A stretch of DNA of 64,000 nt from Nocardioides ginsengisegetis (GTDB taxonomy: Bacteria > Actinomycetota > Actinomycetes > Propionibacteriales > Nocardioidaceae): assembly GCF_014138045.1 (NCBI RefSeq), contig NZ_JACGXA010000001.1, forward strand, positions 62,001 through 126,000. Direction: 5' to 3'. The notes under the pieces are model-generated. The model did no database searches. It saw nothing but the letters and a program-made list of their open reading frames with translations, and was not told the DNA's origin. Position 1 is the first letter of the stretch. Each line of letters opens with the position of its first letter. The translations under genes were made by a program, and so were the position numbers. Below are positions 19,849-42,899 of the stretch, one piece after another.

Positions 19849-20706
19849 ATGCCCCAGAGGGACGTGCTCGCCGCCGGCGCCGTGGTCTTCCGTCCCGGGA
19901 AGCGCGTGCTCCTGGTCCATCGCCCCAAGTACGACGACTGGTCCTTCCCCAAGGGCAAGGTCGACCCGGGCGAGCACGTGACGGCGGCGGCGGTCCGCGA
20001 GGTGGCCGAGGAGACCGGCGTCCATGTCCGGCTCGGGCCACCGCTGAGCGCGCAGCGCTATCCCAACGGCGACCGGATGAAGAGCGTCGCCTACTGGACG
20101 GGCCGGGCGGTCGGCGACGACGACGTCTCGGGCTACCTGGTCAACGCCGAGATCGACGACGTGCGCTGGGTGGACTTCGACGAGGCGGTCGAGCTGCTGA
20201 CCTACCCACACGACGTGGACACGCTGCGCGAGGCGGCCAGGCGGCGCCGCAAGACCCACGCGCTCGTGGTGCTGCGCCACGGCCAGGCCCGCTCGCGGAA
20301 GGCGTGGCGCAAGGACGACCGGCTGCGCCCGCTGATGGCCGCCGGGCGGCTGCAGGCCCAACACCTGGTGCCGGTGCTCGCGGCGTACGACGTGACCCGC
20401 GTGGTCAGCTCCAGCTCGACGCGCTGCGTGGAGTCGGTGGCGCCGTACGCCGACGTCACGGGCTGGAAGCTCGAGCTCGAGGACGCCCTCAGCGAGGAGG
20501 CGGCCACCGCGCACGAGGTGCTGCGGGTCGTCGACGACCTGGTGCACGGTGACGAGGGGGCGGTGCTGTGCAGCCACCGTCCGGTGCTGCCCGCCGTGTT
20601 CGACGCCCTGGGGCTGCGCGACCCGGATCTGGAGCCCGGGAGCATGCTCGTGGCGCACGTGCGCAAGGGGGCCGTGGTGGCCACGGAGATCCAGTCCGTG
20701 CGGTGA
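19849..20706 (+). CDS. mutT1: MutT1-type Nudix hydrolase fused to histidine phosphatase
   Basis: 285 aa. The N-terminal Nudix domain has the full box GKVDPGEHVTAAAVREVAEE (about residues 43-62, then TGV). The C-terminal histidine-phosphatase domain starts with VVLRHGQARSRKAW (about 141-154) and has a second His in CSHRPVLP. This two-domain layout is that of mycobacterial MutT1 (Rv2985), which degrades 8-oxo-GTP/dGTP and diadenosine polyphosphates. In mycobacteria it neighbours ppk; here ppk lies 9 kb downstream in the same phosphate-related island. Confidence 0.9.
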   Translation: MPQRDVLAAGAVVFRPGKRVLLVHRPKYDDWSFPKGKVDPGEHVTAAAVREVAEETGVHVRLGPPLSAQRYPNGDRMKSVAYWTGRAVGDDDVSGYLVNAEIDDVRWVDFDEAVELLTYPHDVDTLREAARRRRKTHALVVLRHGQARSRKAWRKDDRLRPLMAAGRLQAQHLVPVLAAYDVTRVVSSSSTRCVESVAPYADVTGWKLELEDALSEEAATAHEVLRVVDDLVHGDEGAVLCSHRPVLPAVFDALGLRDPDLEPGSMLVAHVRKGAVVATEIQSVR

Positions 20707-20886: not shown

Positions 20887-21990
20887 GTGAAGAGCACTTC
20901 CGTCCGCCGGGCAATCGTGCCCGGGATCGCTGCCCTCACGCTGGCCCTGTCCGCCTGTGGCGCCGGCAACGAGTCGTCCAGCACCGACAGCAGCTCGAGT
21001 GGCTCGGTGAGCGGCACCCTGAACGGTGGCGGCTCGTCCGCCCAGGAGTCCGCGCAGGCTGCGTGGAAGGCTGGCTTCCAGGGCGCCAACAGCGGCGCCA
21101 CCGTGAACTACGACCCGGTCGGCTCCGGCACGGGTCGCGAGAACTTCATCAACGGCGCCTACAAGTTCGCCGGCTCCGACTCGGCGCTCAGCACCGACGA
21201 GGGCGAGCTCGACAAGGCCAAGGAGGCGTGCGGCGGCGAGGACCCGATCGAGGTCCCCGCGTACGTGTCCCCGATCGCCGTGGTCTACAACGTCCAGGGC
21301 GTCGACAACCTCCAGCTCGACGCGCCGACGATCGCCGAGATCTTCGCCGGCAAGATCACCAAGTGGAACGACCCGGCCATCGCCGACCAGAACCCCGACG
21401 CGAAGCTGCCGAGCACCACGATCACGCCCGTGCACCGCTCGGACGACTCGGGCACCACGAACAACTTCACCGACTACCTCGAGCAGGCTGCCGAGGGCAA
21501 GTGGACCTACCCGGCCGACAGCATCTGGCCGATCAAGGGCGGCGAGGCCGGCGACGGCACCTCCGGCCTGGTGGCCGCGGTCAAGGCCGGCGACGGCACC
21601 ATCGGCTACGCCGACGAGAGCCAGGCCGGTGACCTCGGCGTCGCCTCGATCAAGGTCGGGGACAGCTACAACGCCCCGTCCGCCGAGGGTGCCGCCCAGG
21701 TGCTGGCGAACTCGCCGCGCGTCTCGGGCCGGGCCGACACCGACATGGCCATCGAGGTGGACCGCAAGGACACCGACGCGGGCGCCTACCCGCTGATGCT
21801 CACGTCGTACCTCATCGCCTGCCAGCACTACGACACGCAGTCCGACGCCGACCTGGTCAAGGGCTACCTGTCCTACGCCGTGTCGACCGAGGGCCAGCAG
21901 GCCGCGGCGACGCAGGCCGGCTCGGCGCCGCTCGACAGCAAGCTGCAGCAGGAAGCCGCAGCGATCGTCGACAAGATCGCCGTCAAGTAA
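20887..21990 (+). CDS. pstS: periplasmic-type phosphate-binding lipoprotein PstS
   Basis: 367 aa from GTG 20887 with AGGAG upstream. It starts with a lipoprotein signal and LSAC lipobox, then a Ser/Gly linker. The phosphate-binding residues of the family are visible in GSSAQ, GSGTGRENFI, SDSALS and HRSDDSGTTNNFTDYL. It binds inorganic phosphate outside the membrane and delivers it to PstCA. A hairpin follows the gene, so its mRNA level is likely higher than that of pstCAB. Confidence 0.95.
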   Translation: MKSTSVRRAIVPGIAALTLALSACGAGNESSSTDSSSSGSVSGTLNGGGSSAQESAQAAWKAGFQGANSGATVNYDPVGSGTGRENFINGAYKFAGSDSALSTDEGELDKAKEACGGEDPIEVPAYVSPIAVVYNVQGVDNLQLDAPTIAEIFAGKITKWNDPAIADQNPDAKLPSTTITPVHRSDDSGTTNNFTDYLEQAAEGKWTYPADSIWPIKGGEAGDGTSGLVAAVKAGDGTIGYADESQAGDLGVASIKVGDSYNAPSAEGAAQVLANSPRVSGRADTDMAIEVDRKDTDAGAYPLMLTSYLIACQHYDTQSDADLVKGYLSYAVSTEGQQAAATQAGSAPLDSKLQQEAAAIVDKIAVK

Positions 21991-24976: not shown

Positions 24977-26221
24977 TCAAGGGGTGGATGCAACACCACG
25001 GCTTGAGGGGTGTTGCAGATGGGCCGTCCGGGATATTGCCGCGAGGTCCGGTCACGGTTCTGGGATGGGATCCGGGCCGGCCTGCTGATCGGGGAGGCCG
25101 CGCGAGCCGCCGGTGTGTCGGTCAACTGCGGGCAGGCATGGTTCCGTGAGCGTGGCGGGGTGTGTCCCTCACGCCAAGAGCCCGGGTCTGTTCGCCCCCG
25201 GTTGACGCTGGAGCAACGCGAGGACATTGCCGCCTTCTGGTCGGAGGGGATGTCCAAGGCTGAGATCGCCCGCGAGGTCGGTGTGCATCGCTCGACCATC
25301 GGGCGGGAGCTGGCAGCCGGCAGCACCTACTTTCCCGACCGGCGGCCCAAGTACCGTGCCACGGTCGCGCAGGCCGCGGCGGACCGGCGAGCGAGTCGAC
25401 CCAAGACCACGAAGCTGGCCGGCAACCCTGCCCTGGCCGCGGAGGTGGCTCGTCGGTTGGAGGAGGAGCACAGCCCCGAGCAGATCGCGGCACGGCTGAA
25501 GATCGACTTCCCCGACGATGAGGACATGCAGGTGAGCCACGAGCCGATCTACCAGGCGCTGTTCGTCCAGGGACGCGGCGAACTGCGCCGGGACCTGCAC
25601 AAACGGCTACGCACCGGCCGGGTGTTGCGCAAGCCACGTCGACCGGTCGGGCAACGCGGGGGCAGCAAGATCCCGGACATGGTCAACATCAGCGAGCGTC
25701 CGCCCGAGGTCGAGGACCGAGCCGTGCCCGGCCACTGGGAGGGCGACCTGATCGTGGGGGCCAGCTCCCGGTCCGCGATCGGGACCCTGGTGGAGCGCGC
25801 CACCGGGTTCACCATGCTGCTGCACCTGCCGGAGAACCACGGCGCAGACACCGTCGCCGCTGCGATGATCGAGGCGATGAGCCGGCTGCCCGAGACGCTG
25901 CGGCAGACCCTGACCTGGGACCAGGGCCGCGAGATGGCCAGCCACGTCCGGATCGCCGCCGCCACCGACCTGGAGATCTACTTCTGCGACCCGCACTCGC
26001 CCTGGCAACGCGGCACCAACGAGAACACCAACGGGCTGCTGCGCCAGTACTTCCCCAAGGGCGCCGACCTCTCCCTCTTCGGCCCCGACTACCTCGAGCA
26101 CGTGGCCCGAAAACTGAACAGCCGACCCCGCAAGCGACTCGGGTTCAAGACCCCCGCCGAAGCTCTCGACGAACTACTCTCACAACCCACAGATCCGCAC
26201 GCTGTTGCATCCACCGGTTGA
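24977..26221 (+). mobile_element. IS30-family insertion sequence
   Basis: About 1245 bp. Terminal inverted repeats are TCAAGGGGTGGATGCAACA (24977-24995) and its inverted partner at 26203-26221, with two mismatches in 19. One intact transposase ORF fills the element, and its stop codon is inside the right repeat. No clear short target duplication could be fixed by eye; flanks are GCACTTGGGC and ATTCGCCGCA. The element lies between the two arms of a long inverted repeat, in agreement with the known preference of IS30-type transposases for hairpin-like targets. Confidence 0.88.
25019..26221 (+). CDS. IS30-family transposase
   Basis: 400 aa from ATG 25019 with GAGGGG 8 nt upstream. The N-terminal helix-turn-helix reads KAEIAREVGVHRSTIGRELA (about 80-99). 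The rve/DDE catalytic core has Asp in GHWEGDLIVG, Asp in TWDQGREM and Glu in GTNENTNGLLRQYFPKG, the IS30 signature. The frame is intact from end to end, so the element could be active. Confidence 0.95.
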   Translation: MGRPGYCREVRSRFWDGIRAGLLIGEAARAAGVSVNCGQAWFRERGGVCPSRQEPGSVRPRLTLEQREDIAAFWSEGMSKAEIAREVGVHRSTIGRELAAGSTYFPDRRPKYRATVAQAAADRRASRPKTTKLAGNPALAAEVARRLEEEHSPEQIAARLKIDFPDDEDMQVSHEPIYQALFVQGRGELRRDLHKRLRTGRVLRKPRRPVGQRGGSKIPDMVNISERPPEVEDRAVPGHWEGDLIVGASSRSAIGTLVERATGFTMLLHLPENHGADTVAAAMIEAMSRLPETLRQTLTWDQGREMASHVRIAAATDLEIYFCDPHSPWQRGTNENTNGLLRQYFPKGADLSLFGPDYLEHVARKLNSRPRKRLGFKTPAEALDELLSQPTDPHAVASTG

Positions 26222-31441: not shown

Positions 31442-32758
31442 GTGGGCAACGGTGGGGTGGGGGTTCGTCGTGTCCTCGAGCCGCACCCCTCGAGCGTGCG
31501 CGAGGCACGGCAGTACGTCCGCGACGTGCTGCGGGCGGCCGGTCGCGAGGACCTCGTGGAGACCGCCGAGCTGCTCGTGAGCGAGCTGGTCACCAACGCG
31601 CTGGTGCACGTCGGGTCCGGCCTGGAGATCGCCGCCTGGGTCGAGGGTGACGTGCTGCGGGTCGAGGTGGGCGACGCGAGCCCGCACGCGCCCCTGCCCC
31701 GACACCACCCGGTCACCGCAGGCACCGGCCGCGGCCTGCGCCTCGTCTCCTCGATGGTCGACCGGTGGGGCACCACCCCGCGCGGCGTCGGCAAGGTGGT
31801 CTGGTTCGAGCTGGAGAACGGCGACCACGAGCCGGACCTCGGCGACTGGGACGTCGCCGACCTCGAGGACGACCAGTCAGGTCGGGTGGTCGCGCCGGGC
31901 GGCTCGCTGCCGCGTCCCCTCGACGTCGAGCTGCTCAACGTGCCGCTCCTGCTGCACACCGTGTGGCAGCAGCACGCCGACGCGCTGCTCCGCGAGCTGC
32001 TGCTGATCCGCATCGGCGCCGGCTCCAACACCGACGAGCTGTGGGCGCACGCGCTCGCCAGTGAGGCGATGTCGTTCCTCCAGGAGAACCTCCCGACCCC
32101 GAACGTCGGTGAGGACGCCGACGAGCTGATGGTCAGCGCTGTCGAGCCGTTCGTCTCCAGCGACCGCGAGGTGTTGCACGTCCCGGCCGAGATCGTCGAC
32201 CACTTCCGGGTGCTCGACGAGACGCTCGAGGCCGCCGTGGGGATGGCCGAGGCGGGCTTCCTGCTCACCCCGCCGACCCAGCCCGAGGTCCAGGCGTTCC
32301 GCCACTGGATCTGTGGGGAGATCCAGCGTCAGGCGATCGGCGAGGCGCCGATCCCGTGGTCCGACGTCCCGACCTCGGCGCCCGCACCCGCGGCCCGTAT
32401 CCCGCTGGGCTGGACCTCCGACGAGGTCAGCGGCTCCGCGCTGGCGGTGATGGCCGCCGACGACACCAACCGGTTGATCGCGGCCAGCCCGTCGGCGCTC
32501 GAGCTGCTGGGGTACGCCGGACCCGAGGAGCTGGTCGGCCGCCGGCTCGTGACGATCATCCCGGCCCGTTTCCGCCAGGCCCACGTCGCCGGCTTCACGC
32601 TCCACCTCGCCAACGGCCGGGCCCCGCTGCTCGACCGCTGGGTCACGGTCCCGGTGCTGCGCAAGGACGGCTCGGAGATCGACGTACGCCTGCTGGTGGC
32701 GGCCGAGATGCTGCCGGCCGGCCGGCGCGTGTTCGTGGCGAGACTCGAGCCCGCCTGA
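31442..32758 (+). CDS. HATPase_c_2 regulator with helical domain and C-terminal PAS
   Basis: 438 aa from GTG 31442, 7 nt after TACAAA, a leaderless pattern (another GTG lies at 31457). Residues 1-125: GHKL domain with N-box [10 protein letters not shown] and glycine loop GTGRGLRLV. Residues about 160-310: helical domain with [22 protein letters not shown], matching QGWFLGEFVRQAAGEQPVAW of the 24-953 protein. Residues about 325-438: PAS domain ([28 protein letters not shown]). It is not a classical histidine kinase because no phospho-acceptor His domain exists. Divergent from ppk1, which invites a polyphosphate- or stress-related role (inference). Confidence 0.8.
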
Positions 32759-32784: not shown

Positions 32785-33825
32785 GTGGCCATCCAGGAGA
32801 AGCTCACCGCCGTCAACCACCGCGTCCAGGGTCCCCTGCTGAGGGCGACCCTCGGCCTGCCGGAGCGGGTCCAGCGGGTTCTGGCCGGCCGGCCCGTGGT
32901 CCGGGACGGGCAGACCCTGGCCACCGACACCCAGCTGGCGCTCCGGCTGCAGAAGCTGGCCGGCGAGAGCGGCGCCGAGACGCTGCCGCTGGCCGAGGGC
33001 CGGGCCGCAACGGTCCGGCACGCGAGCGCGGCCGGGGGCAGCCAGCGCATCGGCGCGGTCCGCGACGTCCCGGTCGGCGACCGGCCGGGCCGCCTGTACG
33101 TCCCCACGGACGCGCCGACGCCCGGGCCGCTGCTGGTCTTCTTCCACGGCGGTGGGTTCGTCTTCGGCGACCTCGACTCCCACGACGCGGGCTGCCGGTT
33201 CCTGGCCGAGCGCAGCGGCTGCCGCATCCTCGCCGTCGACTACCGGCTCGCGCCGGAGTCGCCCTTCCCGGCCGCGCACGACGACGCGATCGACGCCTAC
33301 CGCTGGGCGGTCAAGAACGCGGCCGGCCTCGGCGCCGACCCCGACCGCCTCGCCGTGGGCGGCGACTCGGCCGGCGGCAACCTGGCCGCGTCGGTGGCGA
33401 TCGAGGCCCGGCGCGAGGGGCTGCCGCTGGCCTTCCAGCTGCTGATCTACCCGGCGACCGACATGGTCCGCGACACCGAGTCGGCGCGGCTGTTCTCCGA
33501 GGGCTTCTACCTCACCAAGGCCTACATGGACCTCGCCAACGACGCGTACGTCGGCGAGACGTCACTGACCGAGCCGCGGCTGTCGATGGCGTACGCCGAC
33601 CTCGACCCTGGCCTCGCGCCCGCCTACGTCGTGACCGCCGGCTTCGACCCGCTGCGCGACGAGGGCGAGGCCTACGCCCGCAAGCTGGCCGACGCGGGCG
33701 TGAGCGTGGAGCTCAAGCGGTTCCCCGACCAGATCCACGGCTTCTTCAACATCGTCGGCGTCGGCCGGACGTCGCGGGCGTGCATGGGGGAGGTCGCGGC
33801 CAAGCTCAAGGCCGCGCTGGCCTGA
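32785..33825 (+). CDS. alpha/beta hydrolase, HSL-type esterase/lipase
   Basis: 346 aa from GTG 32785, 6 nt after TAGATT (leaderless pattern). The hormone-sensitive-lipase group is marked by the oxyanion motif FFHGGGFVFGD (about 118-128), the nucleophile GGDSAGGNLAASV (Ser near 194), Asp in AGFDPLRDEGEAY and His in IHGFFN. It is a cytosolic carboxylesterase of unknown substrate. It follows the PAS regulator by 26 nt on the same strand. Confidence 0.9.
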   Translation: MAIQEKLTAVNHRVQGPLLRATLGLPERVQRVLAGRPVVRDGQTLATDTQLALRLQKLAGESGAETLPLAEGRAATVRHASAAGGSQRIGAVRDVPVGDRPGRLYVPTDAPTPGPLLVFFHGGGFVFGDLDSHDAGCRFLAERSGCRILAVDYRLAPESPFPAAHDDAIDAYRWAVKNAAGLGADPDRLAVGGDSAGGNLAASVAIEARREGLPLAFQLLIYPATDMVRDTESARLFSEGFYLTKAYMDLANDAYVGETSLTEPRLSMAYADLDPGLAPAYVVTAGFDPLRDEGEAYARKLADAGVSVELKRFPDQIHGFFNIVGVGRTSRACMGEVAAKLKAALA

Positions 33826-33837
33826 GCGCCCGCCGGG

Positions 33838-34824
33838 TCAGTGGCGCACCCCGCGCCACTGGGCCATCGGACGGAACTCCCCGAACCGGGCGAGGGCCGC
33901 GCTGGCCACTCCGGGGTCGCTGCCATACGCGGTCACGCCCCAACGTTGCCCGTCGACCATCGAAGCGGCCTTGTAACCGAGTCCGAGACAGCCGTGGCTG
34001 CCCACGTACGTCGGCGACCAGGTGGCCAGGGTCGCGCCGCCGCTGGGGCGTCGCTCGGGTGGTCCGAGGTGCAGGTAGTCCGACATCGCTGCCGCCGCTG
34101 AGGTGAACTGGGACCAGTTCATGCACACCTTGCTCCCGGCCATGTCGAAGGTGCACTGGCGGTGCAGCACGCGCTGGCCCAGCGGAATGTCGACACAGGT
34201 CGCGCCGGCTGCCTCGAGGCGGGGCCCGCGGTCGAGGAAGACCCAGTTGAGGCCGGCGAGCGACGCTGTCGTGGTGGCCGCGGCGTAGGGCGAACCGCAC
34301 GCCTCGAGTCTCGCTGTCGACGTGCCGTCCCAGCACCGGAACCGAGGCGGCGGGGGAGTGGTCGAGGCAGGCGGCGCCGATGCTTCCGAGGCCGACGCCG
34401 TGTCGGAGCTCGCCTGCGACGTGGGCTCGGCAGGAGCGATGGACGTCGTGTCGCCTGCGGGCGCGCTGGCGCTGGCGGAGGTGGCAGAGCGATGGTGCAG
34501 CAGAGCGGCTGCGCCACCGGCCCCGGCCAGCACGACCAGCAGGGCCACCGCGACCACCACCGCCGTGCGGCCGGCCCCGCGTGAAGCGGAGCCCGGCACG
34601 AACGGCGGCGGCCGGTCGCCGGCCAGCGAGGGAGCCCCGGAGGGTGTTCCACAGCGCGTGCAGAACATCGTCCCGGAGGACGGCGCTCCACAGCCGGAGC
34701 ACGGGCTCTCGCCCACCGGCGGGTCGGGCCGCGGCGTCACGTCACGCGGTGTGCCGCAGGAGGTACAGAACGGCAGGTCCGCGACGGAGTTGCCGCAGCG
34801 GCTGCAGGCGAGCGAGCTGGTCAT
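33838..34824 (-). CDS. double zinc-ribbon membrane protein with extracytoplasmic Cys/Trp domain
   Basis: 328 aa from ATG 34824; a GTG at 34836, right after the upstream stop, is an alternative. Two zinc ribbons (CSRCGNSVADLPFCTSCG and CSGCGAPSSGTMFCTRCG) occupy about residues 6-55. One membrane helix (about 90-110) and a Ser/Ala/Pro-rich linker follow. The C-terminal domain contains CWDGTSTARLEACGSPY, WVFLDRG and several more Cys and Trp residues. The CWDG...CG...WVF pattern is one I recall at the C-terminus of some actinobacterial Ser/Thr kinases. It is last gene of a four-gene cluster whose members share the ribbon-membrane design. Confidence 0.75.
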   Translation of the reverse strand: MTSSLACSRCGNSVADLPFCTSCGTPRDVTPRPDPPVGESPCSGCGAPSSGTMFCTRCGTPSGAPSLAGDRPPPFVPGSASRGAGRTAVVVAVALLVVLAGAGGAAALLHHRSATSASASAPAGDTTSIAPAEPTSQASSDTASASEASAPPASTTPPPPRFRCWDGTSTARLEACGSPYAAATTTASLAGLNWVFLDRGPRLEAAGATCVDIPLGQRVLHRQCTFDMAGSKVCMNWSQFTSAAAAMSDYLHLGPPERRPSGGATLATWSPTYVGSHGCLGLGYKAASMVDGQRWGVTAYGSDPGVASAALARFGEFRPMAQWRGVRH

Positions 34825-34836
34825 CGTCAAACCCAC

Positions 34837-36657
34837 TCAGGCCCGCGGACCGTGGTCCGTCGTCGCTGGCGGGTACGGAGGCGGCGTCGCCGGCGCACCT
34901 GAAGGCTGCCCGTACATCGACGGCGCCTCGCCGCGGGTGGGCGGAACGTACGGCTGTCGGGCCGTGTGGGGCGCCTGCGGGCCGGGGTACTCCTGGGCGC
35001 TGGCCGCGAACGCCGTGGCGCGCTGGCGCAGTTGCTGGGTGGTGAGCGCCCCGAAGACCAGCGCGACCAGCAGGGCGATCACGGCGCCGTACATCGTGAT
35101 CAGCACTGTCGTGGACGCGAAGCCCACCGGCCCCAGGGTCCCCGAGGCCGTCACCGTCGCGCGGCCGCTCTCGTAGAAGAGGAAGCCCAGGTCTCCGTGC
35201 AGCGACACATTGCCGTGACCGGCCGCCAGGTGGGCGAGCATCGGCGCGGTCACGAGCAGGGTGGCCACCCAGGCCGCCAGCGCCGAGACCAGATAGACAG
35301 GGCTCACCGCCGACGTGGGCTGCGGGGTGAAGTGGCCGGGGTACTGGTCGGCGTACTGCTGGTGGGCGAGCGCCGTCTCGCGGATGCGTCGGGCACGGCG
35401 GATCGCGACCGTGGCGCCGAGTGCGAGCCACAGCGGGGTGACGACGACGGCGATCCAGAGGCCGGGCTCGCCCCAGGTGCTGGTGAACCAGTGCAGGCCG
35501 TGGCTGACGTCGTAGCTGTCGGACGGATGACGACCGCCCCAGCTGGCGTGGTAGCTGCCGCTGACGCCGAGCTTGCCCATGGTTCCCAGGGAGACGAGAG
35601 CCAGTCCGGCGTTGCCGAGATAGGTCACGGCACTGGCGACGAGGCTCATCCACTCGTCGGTGTTGAGTGTCGAGGTGTCGGTGTACTGGCTGTCGCCGAC
35701 GAGCAGGATCGCGAGAACGCCGATGAGGCCTGCGACGGGGAGGGCGATCGTCATGGCCGCGAAGCCGGCCAGGGGCGGTGCCACCCAGTCGTGCAGCCGG
35801 CTCACCCGCGCGGGGAGCCAGTCCTTGCGCATCACGACGGAGGCAGCGAGCACGACCGTGACGGTCACGAAGGTCATGATGAAGGCGCTGAGGGCGGAGG
35901 CGCCCCACGTCACGCGGAAGAATTCATCGGCGAAGTCGCCGGCCCAGGAGGGGCCGAGGTCGCCGTTGTCCGACCGGAACACGATCGAGAAGGCCGTCAC
36001 GGGCAACGCAGCGACCAGTCCGGTGCGCGCGGCGTCCGTGAGTGCCTGGAGGGCGCTGGTGTTGCGCCGGTTGATGCGTCGCCAGACGAGGACGGCCACC
36101 GTCAGCGTCATGATCGTCACGGTCAGCGGCCACGCGCCGATCGTGACGCTTCCGTGGGCACGCTTCATCTCGGAGGTCGCGAGCGCGTCGGCCCCGAAGC
36201 TGTTGGCCAGCAGCGTCGCAATCACGGTCAGGGTGTTGTCCAGGCCGAAGTCCTTCGGCTTCCACACCAGAGTGAGGATCGTGGACAGCACTCCTGCCGT
36301 GCCGACCGTGGCGGCGGCAACGAGGATGGCGCCGGCCCAGTTGCCACGCAGGAGGAAACCGACGGCGCGGCCCAGCGTGGCGGCCGGGTCTCCCGGGCTG
36401 GCCACGGGCTCCGTGGGGGTCGTCGTCGGCGTCGTGGCCGGCTGTGGCTGCGCGGCCCACTGGGGTGCGGGCGGCGTCATCATCGGGCGCACCCGGGTCG
36501 TGTCCCCCTCGGGCGCGGGCGCGGGCGCGGAGGGAGGAGGCGGCGCCACGGCGGTGGCGACGGTGGGAGAGGGCGCGCCCGCCACCGGAGCCGCACAGCC
36601 GGAGCAGAAGCGCTGGCCCTCGAAGACTTGGGTGCCGCAATGGCCGCAGTAACTCAC
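34837..36657 (-). CDS. zinc-ribbon polytopic membrane protein
   Basis: 606 aa from GTG 36657 with AGAGG upstream. An N-terminal zinc ribbon CGHCGTQVFEGQRFCSGC (about 4-21) is followed by a Pro/Ala/Thr linker and then eight to nine membrane helices from about residue 95 to 545. A hydrophilic loop with repeated Ser/Tyr/His (SGSYHASWGGRHPSDSYDVS) lies between helices six and seven. A Pro/Tyr-rich C-terminal tail ends GPRA. No transporter signature is recognised. Start and stop are tight against its neighbours, so it is co-transcribed with both flanking ribbon proteins. Confidence 0.75.
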   Translation of the reverse strand: MSYCGHCGTQVFEGQRFCSGCAAPVAGAPSPTVATAVAPPPPSAPAPAPEGDTTRVRPMMTPPAPQWAAQPQPATTPTTTPTEPVASPGDPAATLGRAVGFLLRGNWAGAILVAAATVGTAGVLSTILTLVWKPKDFGLDNTLTVIATLLANSFGADALATSEMKRAHGSVTIGAWPLTVTIMTLTVAVLVWRRINRRNTSALQALTDAARTGLVAALPVTAFSIVFRSDNGDLGPSWAGDFADEFFRVTWGASALSAFIMTFVTVTVVLAASVVMRKDWLPARVSRLHDWVAPPLAGFAAMTIALPVAGLIGVLAILLVGDSQYTDTSTLNTDEWMSLVASAVTYLGNAGLALVSLGTMGKLGVSGSYHASWGGRHPSDSYDVSHGLHWFTSTWGEPGLWIAVVVTPLWLALGATVAIRRARRIRETALAHQQYADQYPGHFTPQPTSAVSPVYLVSALAAWVATLLVTAPMLAHLAAGHGNVSLHGDLGFLFYESGRATVTASGTLGPVGFASTTVLITMYGAVIALLVALVFGALTTQQLRQRATAFAASAQEYPGPQAPHTARQPYVPPTRGEAPSMYGQPSGAPATPPPYPPATTDHGPRA

Positions 36658-36684
36658 AGGAGACCTCTCAGAATGGGTGACGGG

Positions 36685-37878
36685 TCAGGCGCGGTGCCGG
36701 GTGGCGCCGTCCGGGTTGCCGTAGCGGACGAGTCGCTTGGCGAAGCACTGGGAAGGAGGGATGCGGCGAACGCTGCACCAGCCGTTGGGCTGGTTCGGCC
36801 GGGTGTAGGGGACGCCCGCGATGACGACCCAGTAGCCGCGCAGCGTGTAGGAGCCCCAGTCGCTGCTGTTGAGCAGGCGGACGTTGGGGAAGCGCAGGCG
36901 CAGGCTGAGGAACTGCTGGTAGATGTCGGCCAGGGAGTAGGCGTGAGCGTCGTGGTGGTCGTACGTCCCGGACCTCTTGGAGGAGAGCTGGGGGACCCAC
37001 GCCCCCTCGAGCAGGGACACGCTCGGGTCGTCGACCCTCGCCTGACGACGGAGAGCCGCGAGCGCGGTCTCCTCCCGGCTGCGGCCCGCTGCGGGGGCCG
37101 GCGCGGAGGCCTCGACGGTGCGACGGACCGCGCCGGTGACATCGCCGGCCGGGACCGGGGTGCCCGTCATGCCGTCGCCGGCTTCGCAGGCCACGACGAC
37201 GGTCCCGTCGGCAATGGCTGCTGCGAGGGCGTCCGGTGACGCCCACGCCGTGCCGCGGCCGAAGCGCGCCACGACCTCGGACGCCGGATCCCCGAAGCCG
37301 GGACTCAGGACAGGCTGGTCGGTCAGGTCGAAGCTGCCCGACGCGAGCTCGGCGCCGGTCGCGTCGCTCAGGACCACGTGGAAGGCCCGGGATTCGATCC
37401 ACTCGCCCGTGGGGCACACCGGATGGAGCTCGAGAGTCACCTGGACGGCCGTGTCGTGCGCGACCGCCCGGGTGGGCACGACGTCGAGCAGCTTCCCGCA
37501 CGACGTGACGAACGACGTGGTCGCAGCATCGCCAGGCGCGGCCGCCCCGGACGGACCGGCGTCCGCGGCAGCGTCCGTCGTGGCCGTCGGGTCTTCGCCG
37601 GCCGTTCCCGTTGCGTGGGCTCGCGTGTCACCGGCCGGGACGTAGTGCGCGACCCAGCCGGCCAGGATCGCGACCATCAGGGCCACGCTCACGGCCGCCA
37701 CGCGACGCCCTGTTCCGCGGCTGGTGTGGCCGCTGCGTGGTGCGGAGGCAGGCGGCTGGGCCACCACCGGGTTCGGAGTCGGACGGGGAACCGTGACCAC
37801 GGCGGACCCGCATCGGCCGCAGAACCGTCCGGGCGGCTGGAGCGGTGCGGCACAGGAGGTGCAGTAGGCGGCGATCAC
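36685..37878 (-). CDS. zinc-ribbon single-pass membrane protein with C-terminal substrate-like domain
   Basis: 397 aa. GTG 37878 has GGAGGTG 3-8 nt upstream and overlaps the stop of the cutinase-VWA gene (GTGA). A zinc ribbon (CTSCAAPLQPPGRFCGRCG) lies at about 6-24, and one helix near 60-80. An extracytoplasmic region of about 130-270 follows. The C-terminal domain has WVPQLSSKRSGTY, AYSLADIYQQFLSLRLRFPN, LLNSSDWGSYTLRGYWVV and WCSVRRIPPSQCFAKRLV. That last domain is one I have seen at the C-terminus of actinobacterial Ser/Thr kinases and zinc-ribbon proteins (recollection, not searched). Function unknown. Confidence 0.78.
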   Translation of the reverse strand: MIAAYCTSCAAPLQPPGRFCGRCGSAVVTVPRPTPNPVVAQPPASAPRSGHTSRGTGRRVAAVSVALMVAILAGWVAHYVPAGDTRAHATGTAGEDPTATTDAAADAGPSGAAAPGDAATTSFVTSCGKLLDVVPTRAVAHDTAVQVTLELHPVCPTGEWIESRAFHVVLSDATGAELASGSFDLTDQPVLSPGFGDPASEVVARFGRGTAWASPDALAAAIADGTVVVACEAGDGMTGTPVPAGDVTGAVRRTVEASAPAPAAGRSREETALAALRRQARVDDPSVSLLEGAWVPQLSSKRSGTYDHHDAHAYSLADIYQQFLSLRLRFPNVRLLNSSDWGSYTLRGYWVVIAGVPYTRPNQPNGWCSVRRIPPSQCFAKRLVRYGNPDGATRHRA

Positions 37879-40241
37879 GGCACCTCCATCTGGGGACCCA
37901 CCAAAGGGCGGCCTCGGCGCGGGAGCCACAGCAGCAGGACGAGGGCGATCGCGAAGCCGCCGCCGGCCGAGCTCCAGACAAGAGGGCGGGCGTACCACGC
38001 CGGCAGGGCCGTCAACGGGGCGAGCCGGGCGCTCACGCTCGGCCCGTAGTTGCCATCGGCGTCCATCGGGGTGACCGTGACGCGCCACGGATCCTTCTGG
38101 AAGAGCACCTCGTCGTGCGTTTCGCGCGCGCTGCCGGGCAGGACGTCGACGGGGTCCCCGTCGACGCTGACGACCCAGCGCTCGGGCTCGGCCGCGCCGC
38201 TGCTCCAGCTGACCGCGAGCCTGACGTGGTCGTCGGCGATCCTCGCGTCGGCGGTCATCGACGTGGCGCCCGGCACGCGGGGAACGAGGCCCGGCACCGG
38301 CGTCTCGTCGACCAGGACTGCAGCGGACGCGTTGCTTCCTCGGCCCTGGTCGTCCACGACGAGGACCTGCATGAGGCCGGAGTAGCCGGGCGGGTAGGTG
38401 TGGTCGACGGTGGGCGACGTCGTCACGTCGTCGGTGGTGCCGTCACCGTCGAAGTCCCAGCGGAACTCCCGGATGCTCCCGACCACGGCACTCGACGCCG
38501 ATGCGTCGAAGTGGATGCTGCGGCCGGCGGCCGCGACGTACGTGCCGTTGGTGAGCAGGGCGGTGGGGCGATCCGCGATGGTGTCGAGGGCGGTCCCGAG
38601 CGCCTCCTCCGTGCGGCCGTCGTGGTTGAGGATGACCTGCCCCGAGGTACGCCGGGCGAGCTCGAAGTAGCCTCGCCCGCCGTCGACGACAGGGAAGATG
38701 TTGATCGGGTCGATCTGGAGCGAGCGACGCTCGACCTGCGCGATCGTCTCTCCGCCGGTCAGGTCCGGCTCGTGGAAATCGGCGTCGGTCAGGATCACCG
38801 CTGCCTTGGAGGCGCCGTACTGCCAACTCAGCTGGTTCATCCCGGTCATGAGGGCGTGGAGCAGCCCCTCCGGGTCGTCGCCGCCGCCGTCGGCATAGAG
38901 CGTGGACAGGCCGTCCTGGAACTGCGCCATGTCCGAGGTGAAGGGAGTCACGATCTCGACCGGGGTCGTGTCGACGGAGTCGCGGTACTGCACCAGGGCG
39001 ACGCGGCCGTCCAGGGCCACGATCCGGCCGGCCTGGTTCTCGGCAAACCTGCGCGCGGCGTCGATGTCGTCGGACATGGAACCGGTGGTGTCGATGAAGA
39101 AGGCGACGTCTCGCCCGGCGAGGCCGGGCGCGGATTCGGCCTCGCCCGGCGGGTGCAGCACCAGGTTCCGCACGCCCAGACGCCAGACGACCCGGTCCGC
39201 CATGCAGGTGATGGCCGACTCGTCCGAGATCGTCTCATCGCCGACCGCACACGAGACGGGGTGGCGGACGAAGTCGCGGTAGGCGGAGCTGTGGATGGGA
39301 ATCCCGCGCGAGGAATCGGAAGGGATGGTCCCTTGTCCGCAGACGAGGTCACCGGCGATGCAGAACGAGTCGGTGATGCCCGCCAGGGTTCGCGGCACCC
39401 CGCGGAAGATGCCCTTCAGCCCTCGTGTCTGGGCGAGACGCTTGTCGACGTCCGAGTAGGACTCCGCGTCCTGGGGGTCGTGGTTGGGGTCGGCGATCAG
39501 TGCAACAGCGGCGATCTGTCCTGCGATCTTGGCCGAGGGGGCGAGGAAGGCCCTGGTGACAGCGGTGCCGACCGTCTGGGTGACGATCCTGCCGCGCAGG
39601 TACGACGTGACCACATCCGCGCCCTGGGAGTAGCCGGCGAGGACGTAGCGCGTACGGGTTCCACACAGTTCCCACTGACGCTCGAGGTCGTGGTGGAGTT
39701 GGCGGACCCCTGACGAGACCGAAGCCCCGTACCCGCCGATCAGCCACAGCGGCGCCTCCTTGATCGTCGCCGGGATGGCGCGGTAGCGAACCGGGCTCCA
39801 GCTCAGGCGAACCTGGCCGCCCACGCGCTCGTGGATCTTCTCGACGAGGTCGTAGAGGAAGGGTGTCCGGGTCGGCACGGTCGGCTTGCCCTCGCTGGTG
39901 AGGTCCAACAGGTCCCCGGCGTCGATGCTCGACCCTCCGGTGTCGGGGTCCACCGGGTCGAAGGCGTCCCACGTGTCGGCGTAGCTGCCCGGGTCGTCGA
40001 GGCCGTCAGCATCCCCGGGTTGCGGGGCCTCGCCCGACCCGCGAACGACGTAGACGATGACCTGCGCACAGGAGGTGTCCGTGGCCGTACCGGAGGTCCC
40101 GACGGTCGGGGTCGTGGCGGCGACGCCCGCCGGCGTCAGGCCGAGGGTGCCGAGCATGAGCGCGACCAGCGTGGCGGCACGGAGCCACAACGTCGCGGAC
40201 ACGCGTCGACGGCAGGCATCGCGGCACCCAGAACCACGCAC
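37875..40241 (-). CDS. exported cutinase-VWA-PKD membrane protein
   Basis: 788 aa from GTG 40241, 5 nt after GGGGG; an upstream TTG (40265) is possible. The signal peptide ends near VAATTP. Residues about 45-330 are a cutinase-type serine esterase: the nucleophile motif GYSQGAD, then a CIAGDLVCGQG element holding Asp, and IHSSAYRDF holding His. Residues about 365-560 are a von Willebrand A domain with a MIDAS-like DTTGSMS and later DGGGDDPEG. A PKD-like domain follows (FDASASSAVV.SIREFRWDFDGDG), then a C-terminal helix and short basic tail (WLPRRGR). The catalytic triad appears complete. First gene of the zinc-ribbon cluster. Confidence 0.82.
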   Translation of the reverse strand: MRGSGCRDACRRRVSATLWLRAATLVALMLGTLGLTPAGVAATTPTVGTSGTATDTSCAQVIVYVVRGSGEAPQPGDADGLDDPGSYADTWDAFDPVDPDTGGSSIDAGDLLDLTSEGKPTVPTRTPFLYDLVEKIHERVGGQVRLSWSPVRYRAIPATIKEAPLWLIGGYGASVSSGVRQLHHDLERQWELCGTRTRYVLAGYSQGADVVTSYLRGRIVTQTVGTAVTRAFLAPSAKIAGQIAAVALIADPNHDPQDAESYSDVDKRLAQTRGLKGIFRGVPRTLAGITDSFCIAGDLVCGQGTIPSDSSRGIPIHSSAYRDFVRHPVSCAVGDETISDESAITCMADRVVWRLGVRNLVLHPPGEAESAPGLAGRDVAFFIDTTGSMSDDIDAARRFAENQAGRIVALDGRVALVQYRDSVDTTPVEIVTPFTSDMAQFQDGLSTLYADGGGDDPEGLLHALMTGMNQLSWQYGASKAAVILTDADFHEPDLTGGETIAQVERRSLQIDPINIFPVVDGGRGYFELARRTSGQVILNHDGRTEEALGTALDTIADRPTALLTNGTYVAAAGRSIHFDASASSAVVGSIREFRWDFDGDGTTDDVTTSPTVDHTYPPGYSGLMQVLVVDDQGRGSNASAAVLVDETPVPGLVPRVPGATSMTADARIADDHVRLAVSWSSGAAEPERWVVSVDGDPVDVLPGSARETHDEVLFQKDPWRVTVTPMDADGNYGPSVSARLAPLTALPAWYARPLVWSSAGGGFAIALVLLLWLPRRGRPLVGPQMEVP

Positions 40242-40342: not shown

Positions 40343-42835
40343 TCAGAGACCGGGGCGCCACGACCGCAGCGCCTCGGTGAACGCCACCGAGTCGACCATC
40401 CGCGCGTCGACGCTGACGGGCGCGAGGTTGCGGCGCAGGAACTCGACCTTCCACTCCTTCTCGCCCGGCGCACCGGCCATCGCGAGCTCGGTCCGGTCGT
40501 TGCGGAGGTCGAAGCGGTGGTGGTGGCCGCCGTCGACGATGTCGACGAGGCCGCGGTCGATCCGCACGTGCGAGGTCGGCGGCCGTGCGATCCAGGCGCC
40601 GACCAGCAGCACGAAGACGAGCACGGCGGCGGGCCAGGCCAGCCAGCCGGGCATCGCGCCGATCGTCGACAGGGCGCTGAGCAGGGCGAGCACCACTGCG
40701 CCGCCCACGAGGACGCTCGAGGTGAGCAGCACCCCGCGCGGCGGGCCGAAGGTGATCACCTCGGTGCCCTCGCCCGGCGTCACGACCGCGGCGGCGCCCG
40801 AGGCGTGCCGGCCGGCGTCGGGGAGCAGGTCGAGGTCGGGCGCCGGACCGGGCGGGGTCGAGTCGATGTCGGCGTGGTCGGCGGGGAGCGGTGGCAGCAC
40901 CACGGGCTGGGGCCGCTGCCACCAGCGCCGGCGCAGCGTCATCTCGTCCATGAGCAGCGTGCGGGTCTCGGCGAGCGCGGCGGCCAGGTCGCGGGCGCGC
41001 TCCTCGGCGATCGCCCGCTCGCGCATCGCCTCCTCGGCGACCTCGGCCTGACGGCGTACGGCGGCCTCGACGGCACTGCGCTCGTAGGCCCGCTCGGCCA
41101 CGGCCTCCTCGGCCTCGGCGCGTGCCCTGGCCTGCTCGGCGGCGGCGTGCTCGGCGGCGGCCCGGGCGTTCTGGGCGGCGGTGAGCTCCTGGAGCGCCTC
41201 GGCGAGCCGGGCCTCGGCGGAGTGCCGCTCGCCGGCGGCCTGGCCGGCCAGCTTGGCGTGCTCGCGGGCGTCGAACTCGGCGGCCTCGCGGCGCTGCTGC
41301 GCCTCGGCGGCCGACTCCTCGGCGACCCGTCGGGCCTCGGCGTGCTCGGCGGCGGCCCGGTCGGCGGTGACCCGTCCGGCGTGCGCCTGGCGGGCCTGCT
41401 CGGCGAGCTCCTCGGCGGCGCGCTGGGCGGCGGCCTGGGCGGTCGCAGCGGCGTCGGCAACGGTGACGGCCTCGCGGGCGGCGTCCTCGGCGGCGGTGCG
41501 GTCGAGGTGGGCCTGCTCGGCCAGCGCGGCCTGGGCGCGGCTGGCGTCCTCGGCGGCGGTGCGGGCCTCGTGGGCGGCGATCGCGGCCTCGGCGTGCTCG
41601 AGGGCGGTGAGCTCGGCGGCCTCGCGGGCCGCGGCCTGGGTGGCGGCGGCCTGCTCGGCGGCGGTGCGGGCCTCGTGGGCAGCGCGGGCGGCCTCGGCGT
41701 GCTCCTGGGTGGTGCGGTCGGCGGCCTCGCGGGCCTCGTGGGCGACCCGGGCGGCGTCGGCGAGCTCGGCGGCGGCCCGATGGGCGGCCTCCTCGGCGGC
41801 TGCGGCCTGGCCGGCGGCGGCGGCGTGCTCGTGGGCGGCGGACTCCGCCGCGGTGCGCTCCTGGTGGGCCTGCCGCGCGAGGTCCGCGTGCTGGCGGGCC
41901 AGCTCCTCGGCCGACGTACGCGCCTCGGCGGCGGCCAGGGCGATGTCGGTGTGCTGCTGGACCTTCTCCTCGGCGCGGGCACGGGCGGCGGCCTGCTCGG
42001 CGGCGATGCCCTCGGCCGCGGCGCGGGCCTCGGCCTGGTCGGCGGCGGCCTGCTCGGCCGCCTCGCGGGCCTCGATGGCGCGACGCCACGCGGCTTCGTA
42101 CTCCGCGGCGGCGAGCCCGGCCGCGTCGGCCAGCTCCTGGGCGCGGGCCTCGGCGGCGAGCCGGTCGTCGTGGGCGGCCTGGGCGGCCTCGGCCTGCTCG
42201 GTGGCGGCGCGCTCGGCGGCCTTGCGGTTGGCGTGGGCCTGGGCGGCCTGCTCGGCGGCTTCGCGGGCGGCCTGCTCGGCGAACGTGCGGCCGGTGTGGG
42301 CGGTGTCGGCGAGGACGGCCTGGGCCTCGGCGGCCTCTTCGGCGGCCTTGCGCTGGGCGGCCTGGTAGGCAGCGGCCTCCTCGGCGGCGACCCGGTAGGC
42401 CTCCGACGACGTGGCGGCCTCGGTCTGCTTGAGGGCGGCGGCCTCGGCGTCCTGCCGGCGCAGGGTGGCGTCGCCGGCGGCCTGCTCGGCGCGGGCGAGC
42501 TCGGCGGCGTGCTTGGCGGCAGCCTGCTCGGCCTCGGTCCGGGCCCGGTGGGCCTGCTCGGCGAGGGCGGCGTGCTCGTGCGCCGCGCGGTCGGCCTGCT
42601 CGCGGGCGGCCGCGGCCCGGGCGGCGGACTCCTCGGCGACGAGGCGCTCGGCGGCCTGCTCGGCGGCGGCGAGCTCGGCAGCCTGCCGGAGCTTGGTGGC
42701 GCGATCGGCGGCCGCGACGGCCTCGGCGGCGCGCTTGTGGGCCTGCTCGGGGGACTCGGCGACCTGGACGTCGGGGCGCCGACGCCAGCGTCGGCCCGAG
42801 GCGTCGTCGGGGGGAGTGGAGGCAGCCGCGTTCAT
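40343..42835 (-). CDS. long Ala-rich coiled-coil membrane protein
   Basis: 830 aa from ATG 42835. Residues about 25-600 are an almost uninterrupted Ala/Glu/Arg coiled coil. A motif like AHEARTAAE recurs at spacings of 21 residues or multiples (three heptads), showing expansion by internal duplication. Residues about 610-700 are a polar linker with RRRWWQRPQP. Two membrane helices follow, then a C-terminal domain RIDRGLVDIVDGG...FDLR...WKVEFLRR...VDARMVDSVAF, homologous to the end of the 3271-4149 protein. The architecture suggests a long cytoplasmic rod tethered to the membrane (scaffold or polarity type); inference only. Confidence 0.75.
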   Translation of the reverse strand: MNAAASTPPDDASGRRWRRRPDVQVAESPEQAHKRAAEAVAAADRATKLRQAAELAAAEQAAERLVAEESAARAAAAREQADRAAHEHAALAEQAHRARTEAEQAAAKHAAELARAEQAAGDATLRRQDAEAAALKQTEAATSSEAYRVAAEEAAAYQAAQRKAAEEAAEAQAVLADTAHTGRTFAEQAAREAAEQAAQAHANRKAAERAATEQAEAAQAAHDDRLAAEARAQELADAAGLAAAEYEAAWRRAIEAREAAEQAAADQAEARAAAEGIAAEQAAARARAEEKVQQHTDIALAAAEARTSAEELARQHADLARQAHQERTAAESAAHEHAAAAGQAAAAEEAAHRAAAELADAARVAHEAREAADRTTQEHAEAARAAHEARTAAEQAAATQAAAREAAELTALEHAEAAIAAHEARTAAEDASRAQAALAEQAHLDRTAAEDAAREAVTVADAAATAQAAAQRAAEELAEQARQAHAGRVTADRAAAEHAEARRVAEESAAEAQQRREAAEFDAREHAKLAGQAAGERHSAEARLAEALQELTAAQNARAAAEHAAAEQARARAEAEEAVAERAYERSAVEAAVRRQAEVAEEAMRERAIAEERARDLAAALAETRTLLMDEMTLRRRWWQRPQPVVLPPLPADHADIDSTPPGPAPDLDLLPDAGRHASGAAAVVTPGEGTEVITFGPPRGVLLTSSVLVGGAVVLALLSALSTIGAMPGWLAWPAAVLVFVLLVGAWIARPPTSHVRIDRGLVDIVDGGHHHRFDLRNDRTELAMAGAPGEKEWKVEFLRRNLAPVSVDARMVDSVAFTEALRSWRPGL

Positions 42836-42899
42836 GTCGGGTCCGAGCGTAATGGGTGTCCGCCGTACCACGGCATCTTCCGGGTGGTTGTGTGACGAC

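Follow-up and report, generated by a model that had tools for sequence, protein, structure and literature searches.

A candidate surface esterase coupled to a zinc-ribbon membrane protein in a four-gene cluster of Nocardioides ginsengisegetis

Among the closest described systems, TcaA of Staphylococcus aureus is modelled in the excerpted text of PMC10328498 with its zinc finger inside the cell, a single membrane span and the bulk of the protein outside, and it affects wall teichoic acid and peptidoglycan crosslinking. The PSP-type operons, as outlined in portions of PMC11237479, join zinc ribbons to membrane segments (B. subtilis YdjG, ZnR-PspC fusions) and contain several ribbon/membrane genes; the coupling of a single-pass ribbon protein to a protein of the Lipocone family is described in a part of PMC12419801. 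Here we consider a cluster of four genes at positions 33838 to 40241 of a 64,000-nucleotide (nt) stretch of Nocardioides ginsengisegetis DNA (contig NZ_JACGXA010000001.1), the whole of which is called the window. The cluster encodes a putative exported esterase, P0001, followed by three membrane proteins that begin with zinc ribbons, P0002, P0003 and P0004. On the sequence evidence, P0001 and P0002 form a conserved, translationally coupled two-gene unit that extends beyond this strain, whereas P0003 and P0004 belong to a group of ribbon membrane proteins that recombine and change partners from one genome to the next.

As far as the excerpted text describes TcaA, the likeness to it is one of layout: by hydropathy, P0002 and P0004 have the same order of parts, their sidedness being predicted. 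The difference is that the distal domain of P0002 is common with a kinase. No esterase gene is known to be coupled to tcaA. The locus shares with the PSP-type operons the ribbon joined to membrane segments and the multi-gene organization; however, the Pfam matches of P0001 to P0004 include no PspA, PspB, PspC, band-7 or TPM domain, and the membrane part of P0003 belongs to no Pfam family. This four-protein composition was not found in the literature excerpts and listings examined.

The earlier note on this DNA described four co-directional, tightly packed genes, and their coordinates, frames and junctions hold; all four genes, and the features located within them below, are on the minus strand. 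By its reading frame, Pfam matches and hydropathy, P0001 (37875..40241, 788 amino acids) is an exported cutinase-VWA-PKD protein with a C-terminal membrane helix. P0002 (36685..37878, 397 amino acids) consists of a zinc ribbon, one helix and a two-domain part predicted to be extracellular; P0003 (34837..36657, 606 amino acids) of a zinc ribbon, a Pro-rich linker, a polytopic membrane part with beta strands between the helices, and a Pro-rich tail; and P0004 (33838..34824, 328 amino acids) of two zinc ribbons, one helix and a predicted extracellular domain. The P0001/P0002 junction read from the sequence is a 4-nt GTGA overlap, the gap between P0002 and P0003 is 27 nt (36658-36684), and that between P0003 and P0004 is 12 nt, or 0 nt if P0004 starts at the alternative in-frame GTG at 34836. 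The start of P0001 (40241) lies 101 nt past the stop of the preceding co-directional gene, and because of this spacing P0001 may have a promoter of its own.

The first junction is the one that recurs. Protein searches for P0001 and P0002, which scored only the 8000 candidates that had the most words in common with the query, gave 61 other proteins for P0001 (the best 23 at 44-64% identity over 74-97% of its length) and 22 other relatives for P0002 (31-57% identity). In the DNA of N. halotolerans (locus L107), relatives of the two are adjacent and overlap by 4 nt, ATGA. Six further pairs of relatives have equal contig sizes and the same source label (155877, 5289, 824283, 5081, 8461 and 4396 nt), so that, to judge from sizes and labels, six of the 23 relatives found for P0001 appear to sit on one contig with a P0002 relative (six of 22). 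Conservation of gene order, proposed earlier as a check on the whole group, is thus lacking for the four genes together in the genomes examined but holds for the first pair, directly in one genome and by implication on six contigs. The pair is rare among the genomes examined: P0001 relatives at E ≤ 1e-40 occur in 3 of 215 genomes of the genus, namely its own (G000), G112 (probably N. halotolerans) and G029, and the same three are the only ones among 341 genomes of the family. When a P0002 relative served as query, 13 of 196 genomes of the genus gave a match at E ≤ 1e-10, and only the matches in G000 and G112 covered almost the whole protein. The G029 protein is 38-40% identical to P0001 over the VWA-PKD part (38% over 370-735); it is longer, and its translation has a cutinase-like stretch ahead of VWA and PKD.

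P0001 was previously described as an exported esterase joined to VWA and PKD domains, and this description, with the esterase as a putative one, is borne out by an N-terminal signal and by Pfam matches to cutinase (E 2.4e-9), VWA_4 (3.5e-12) and PKD_4 (1.1e-7), all above the Pfam cut-offs; for cutinase, PF01083, the score is 37.8 bits against a cut-off of 25.9. The cutinase domain covers residues 147-306 (39324..39803), the VWA domain residues 380-510 (38712..39104) and the PKD domain residues 558-636 (38334..38570). Conservation was assessed in an alignment of 24 rows, comprising P0001 and its 23 best relatives (P0013-P0035), with the more distant P0036-P0073 left out. Residues S205, D298 and H317, which we take to be the putative catalytic triad from the cutinase pattern, are identical in all 24 rows, H317 being just beyond the Pfam match. 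The metal site of the VWA domain is represented by DxTxS (384-388) and D486: D384, S388 and D486 are kept in 24 of 24 rows and T386 in 23, with one T-to-S replacement. The usual Thr of such sites was not picked out in P0001, and a conserved GGGDDPE lies in that region. In addition to the signal, hydropathy reveals a C-terminal membrane helix (residues 754-772, 37926..37982) followed by an Arg-rich tail, and one more weak stretch at 231-249. Other fusions of cutinase PF01083 with VWA and PKD have the same domain set, an export signal and the conserved S/D/H residues.

The distal extracellular domain of P0002 (residues 288-386, 36721..37017), delimited by sequence matches and the structural model, occurs in other proteins too. 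The last ~130 residues of P0002 match the C-terminus of a plasmid-encoded Ser/Thr kinase of Tsukamurella (37.5%, E 1e-6) and the C-terminus of a PQQ-propeller protein of Rhodococcus (38.7%, E 3e-14), and these were the only two plasmid records matched at E ≤ 0.1. The resemblance to actinobacterial receptor-type Ser/Thr kinases is thus that one of them ends in this domain; the difference is that P0002 has a ribbon in the place of the kinase domain. The domain recurs in long ribbon proteins of G145, G140, G077 and G113, whose middle parts resemble propellers by eye, Pfam being silent for the G145 protein and weak for that of G140. As a side observation, the long ribbon proteins at loci L188, L189, L190 and L191 end in this domain and have a middle that looks like a propeller by eye. 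In the model of P0002 (mean predicted local distance difference test score, pLDDT, 78.9) the domain is predicted to have a SPOR-like order of strands and helices, with the beta-alpha-beta-beta-alpha-beta topology. Comparison with four E. coli SPOR domains gave an hhalign probability of at most 2.3%, and none of the Pfam families hit by the 23 members of the P0002 alignment is SPOR.

N-terminal ribbons and membrane helices had been reported for three of the proteins, and we find two N-terminal CxxC pairs and hydropathy stretches in each. The ribbon of P0002 is formed by C6, C9, C20 and C23 (37810..37863), that of P0003 by C4, C7, C18 and C21 (36595..36648), and the double ribbon of P0004 by CxxC pairs within residues 7-59 (34648..34806). 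The best ribbon scores are below the Pfam cut-offs (17.4 vs 27.3 bits for P0002, 19.4 vs 25 for P0003 and 21.2 vs 27.3 for P0004). At each ribbon cysteine of P0002, 16 rows of the alignment, P0002 among them, have a residue and seven have a gap, and the cysteine is conserved in 15 or all of these 16; precomputed annotation gives PF13240 for 3 of 6 other P0003 relatives and 4 of 22 P0002 relatives. Hydropathy indicates one helix each in P0002 and P0004; in P0003 it indicates about nine hydrophobic stretches.

Proteins that begin with a ribbon are not in themselves uncommon in the genus: a profile of the P0003 family has at least one match at E ≤ 0.001 in 193 of 196 genomes (three matches in this genome), and the weak matches are mostly the ribbon region of short frames. 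What is unusual is that three of them with membrane helices stand side by side. In 20 evenly spaced 20-kilobase (kb) stretches of the main contig of the same genome, where genes were called by a simple codon-usage script, 2 of 354 predicted genes carry two CxxC motifs at the N-terminus, and neither of the two also has a stretch with hydropathy above 1.5. Of the 53 genes predicted in the window, 3 combine such motifs with a helix, and all three are neighbours in the cluster; three consecutive genes of this kind exceed the chance expectation. None of the four proteins matched the PADLOC anti-phage models at E ≤ 0.01.

At E < 1e-40 the P0003 family is present in 18 of 196 genus genomes, and the neighbourhoods of all 18 were read. 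The gene just upstream encodes a single-pass ribbon protein with a NADase_transloc domain in ten of them (10 of 10 by Pfam), and by eye these ten pairs occupy one common chromosomal setting. The directly upstream gene is P0002 in the window and a P0004-like gene in G156 (blastp E 1.4e-5 with P0004, and 7.6e-22 with the P0004-like gene of N. halotolerans). Tandem P0003-family genes at L041, L097 and L103 (G003, G129 and G145) suggest local duplication. In the model of P0003 (mean pLDDT 82.9, predicted template modelling score 0.77), beta strands connect long helices. With the ribbon on the inner side, these strands would be outside, and the Arg-rich loops near 193, 277 and 421 agree with this by the positive-inside rule. 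P0003 has no significant match in Pfam, in NCBIfam or to a solved fold; by sequence, it matched solved structures twice, both at positions 3-80, i.e., the ribbon and linker. Proteins with DUF7937 (PF25592) resemble it in having an N-terminal ribbon and a polytopic part, and they occur in two of the same neighbourhoods (N. halotolerans and G140). However, their membrane parts show no detectable relation to that of P0003: when profiles were compared for one DUF7937 protein, the alignment was confined to residues 2-28 in the ribbon, and DUF7937 was absent from the matches of P0003 and from the 25 families shown for 24 members of its family.

The P0004 search gave matches in 8 of 58 genomes, its own included. 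They cover the outside part in G001, G011 and G015 and most of the length in G025. Other parts were matched more weakly in G014, G034 and G035, and in G011 by its second match; P0004-like genes were also found on reading the loci of N. halotolerans, G140 and G156. Such a gene adjoins purL or lies within a few kb of it in G001, G011, G015, G025 and N. halotolerans, and has the same relation to purQ/purS in G156. The ribbon motif is absent from the P0004-like genes of G001, G011 and G015. The interval of purS, purQ and purL repeatedly holds P0004-like or other ribbon/single-pass genes (L199, L200, L201, L202, L107, L104) and looks like a hot spot. G140 has three genes of interest within 12 kb: one is P0004-like, one encodes a long protein that ends in the P0002 domain, and the third is a DUF7937 ribbon gene. 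In N. halotolerans, four ribbon genes besides that of P0002 lie within ~7 kb of the P0001/P0002 copy: three of them are on the strand of P0001 and P0002, namely the P0004-like gene, one more ribbon gene and a frame in which a PQQ-type propeller (PQQ_2, E 2.7e-15) follows the ribbon, and the DUF7937 ribbon gene is on the opposite strand of the same interval.

We tentatively favour a reading in which a surface esterase is coupled to a kinase-type extracellular sensor, with the cytosolic ribbons as the common docking part. It starts from what we regard as firm at the level of sequence: the packing, the conservation and coupling of the first pair, the domains, the conserved putative catalytic residues, the domain shared with a kinase and the recombining partners. 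P0001 would be exported and kept anchored by its C-terminal helix, so that the cutinase-type serine esterase and the VWA/PKD binding domains face outside. P0002 would be made together with it and span the membrane a single time, its ribbon in the cytosol and its two-domain part outside; since a receptor-type Ser/Thr kinase has the same distal domain, P0002 is likely to read an extracellular state, which may be wall material or the substrate or product of the esterase. P0003 would be drawn from the ribbon pool of the genus as a polytopic platform and P0004 as a second single-pass receptor; docking of the ribbons in the cytosol would then allow interchangeable outside modules to use one platform. 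Membrane sidedness, the docking, the sensing by P0002 and the substrate are the parts that we infer.

Several results weigh against this reading. None of the other genomes examined has the complete set of four. The equality of contig sizes is an indirect sign of P0001-P0002 linkage. No ribbon membrane gene is present on the 6.4-kb contig of G029, and outside the genus other actinobacteria carry the same cutinase-VWA-PKD fusion with no ribbon neighbours in the DNA examined (L108-L111 and L204; the codon-usage caller found few genes in L108 and L111, where the unfiltered ribbon scan is the better evidence). The ten NADase_transloc pairs count as about one event because of their common chromosomal setting, and in 6 of the 18 P0003-family genomes (G036, G025, G072, G136, G163 and G028) a ribbon partner is absent in the DNA examined. 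P0004-like genes may be kept by their position at purL and not by a partner. Finally, inspection of the window's gene list by eye revealed no kinase gene next to the cluster.

The earlier note suggested that the four proteins are subunits of one envelope machine. In such a machine P0003 could be the platform or a channel, P0002 and P0004 could have regulatory roles, and P0001 could be the outer enzyme. The compact co-directional group and the retention of P0001-P0002 beyond the strain survive from this proposal, and the ribbon genes gathered around the N. halotolerans pair fit it, whereas a fixed set of four subunits does not. The tight packing of all four genes speaks for such a machine, as do the three consecutive ribbon membrane genes (vs 0 of 354 sampled) and the fact that in 12 of the 18 genomes, the window and G156 counted, the P0003-family gene directly follows a single-pass ribbon gene. 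However, no second genome with the four genes was found among those examined; the 20-kb locus of N. halotolerans has P0001-P0002 without a P0003-family gene; the distributions of the P0001 set (3 of 341 family genomes) and the P0003 family (18 of 196 genus genomes) coincide only in the genome of the window; and none of the six P0003 relatives besides its own matches any relative of P0001 or P0002 in contig size. We consider a dedicated four-subunit machine unlikely. The same patchiness of each gene, with changing neighbours, would follow if horizontally moved surface-protein genes had accumulated on one transcript with no function in common. The P0004-like genes near purL or purQ/purS in six other genomes, where position may be what is kept, and an integrase-core gene ~7.6 kb from the cluster agree with this. 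Against accumulation stand the junction of P0001 and P0002, which overlap by 4 nt in both species read, their apparent common contigs in six records and the three ribbon membrane genes in a row, and we find it rather doubtful.

One further reading is nutritional, with P0001 as a polyester or lipid hydrolase and P0002-P0004 sensing or importing the products. The cutinase domain with its conserved putative triad residues fits, VWA and PKD could hold a solid substrate, and a convergent alpha/beta-hydrolase gene adjoins the cluster (32785-33825; Abhydrolase_3, E 3.7e-73). However, P0003 has no significant transporter family in Pfam or NCBIfam and no solved fold, and the neighbouring hydrolase has no relative among the genes called in the N. 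halotolerans locus; such a system seems quite improbable. A broader proposal, which we hold to be speculative and unlikely as a whole, is a modular envelope system with the ribbon as a common plug: polytopic platforms (the P0003 family, DUF7937) would take interchangeable single-pass ribbon receptors with outside domains of the kinase type, the NADase-translocation type or the P0004 type, one branch being hard-wired to a surface esterase. If true, it would be a kinase-free counterpart of the receptor Ser/Thr kinases, the ribbon replacing the kinase. The conserved esterase coupling and the outside domain shared with a kinase offer a concrete handle by which the role of the ribbon can be tested. 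Ribbon membrane proteins are often left annotated as "zinc-ribbon domain-containing protein", though TcaA, which has the same layout, alters the S. aureus wall according to the excerpted text on it.

The same-strand neighbour upstream of the cluster (40343-42895, minus strand) is a long Ala/Glu-rich coiled-coil-like gene; it has no Pfam match at E ≤ 0.001 and no relative among the genes called in the N. halotolerans locus. Elsewhere in the window, the integrase-core (rve) gene at 25250-26221 (plus strand) also encodes a helix-turn-helix, resembles IS30-type transposases by eye and lies downstream of a phosphate-transport-type gene group. The gene at 19849-20706 (plus strand) fuses a NUDIX domain to a histidine-phosphatase domain, just upstream of a PBP_like_2 gene (20887-21990) and ~8.5 kb from a polyphosphate kinase gene. 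At 31496-32758 (plus strand), an anti-sigma-type ATPase domain (HATPase_c_2) is joined to a PAS domain.

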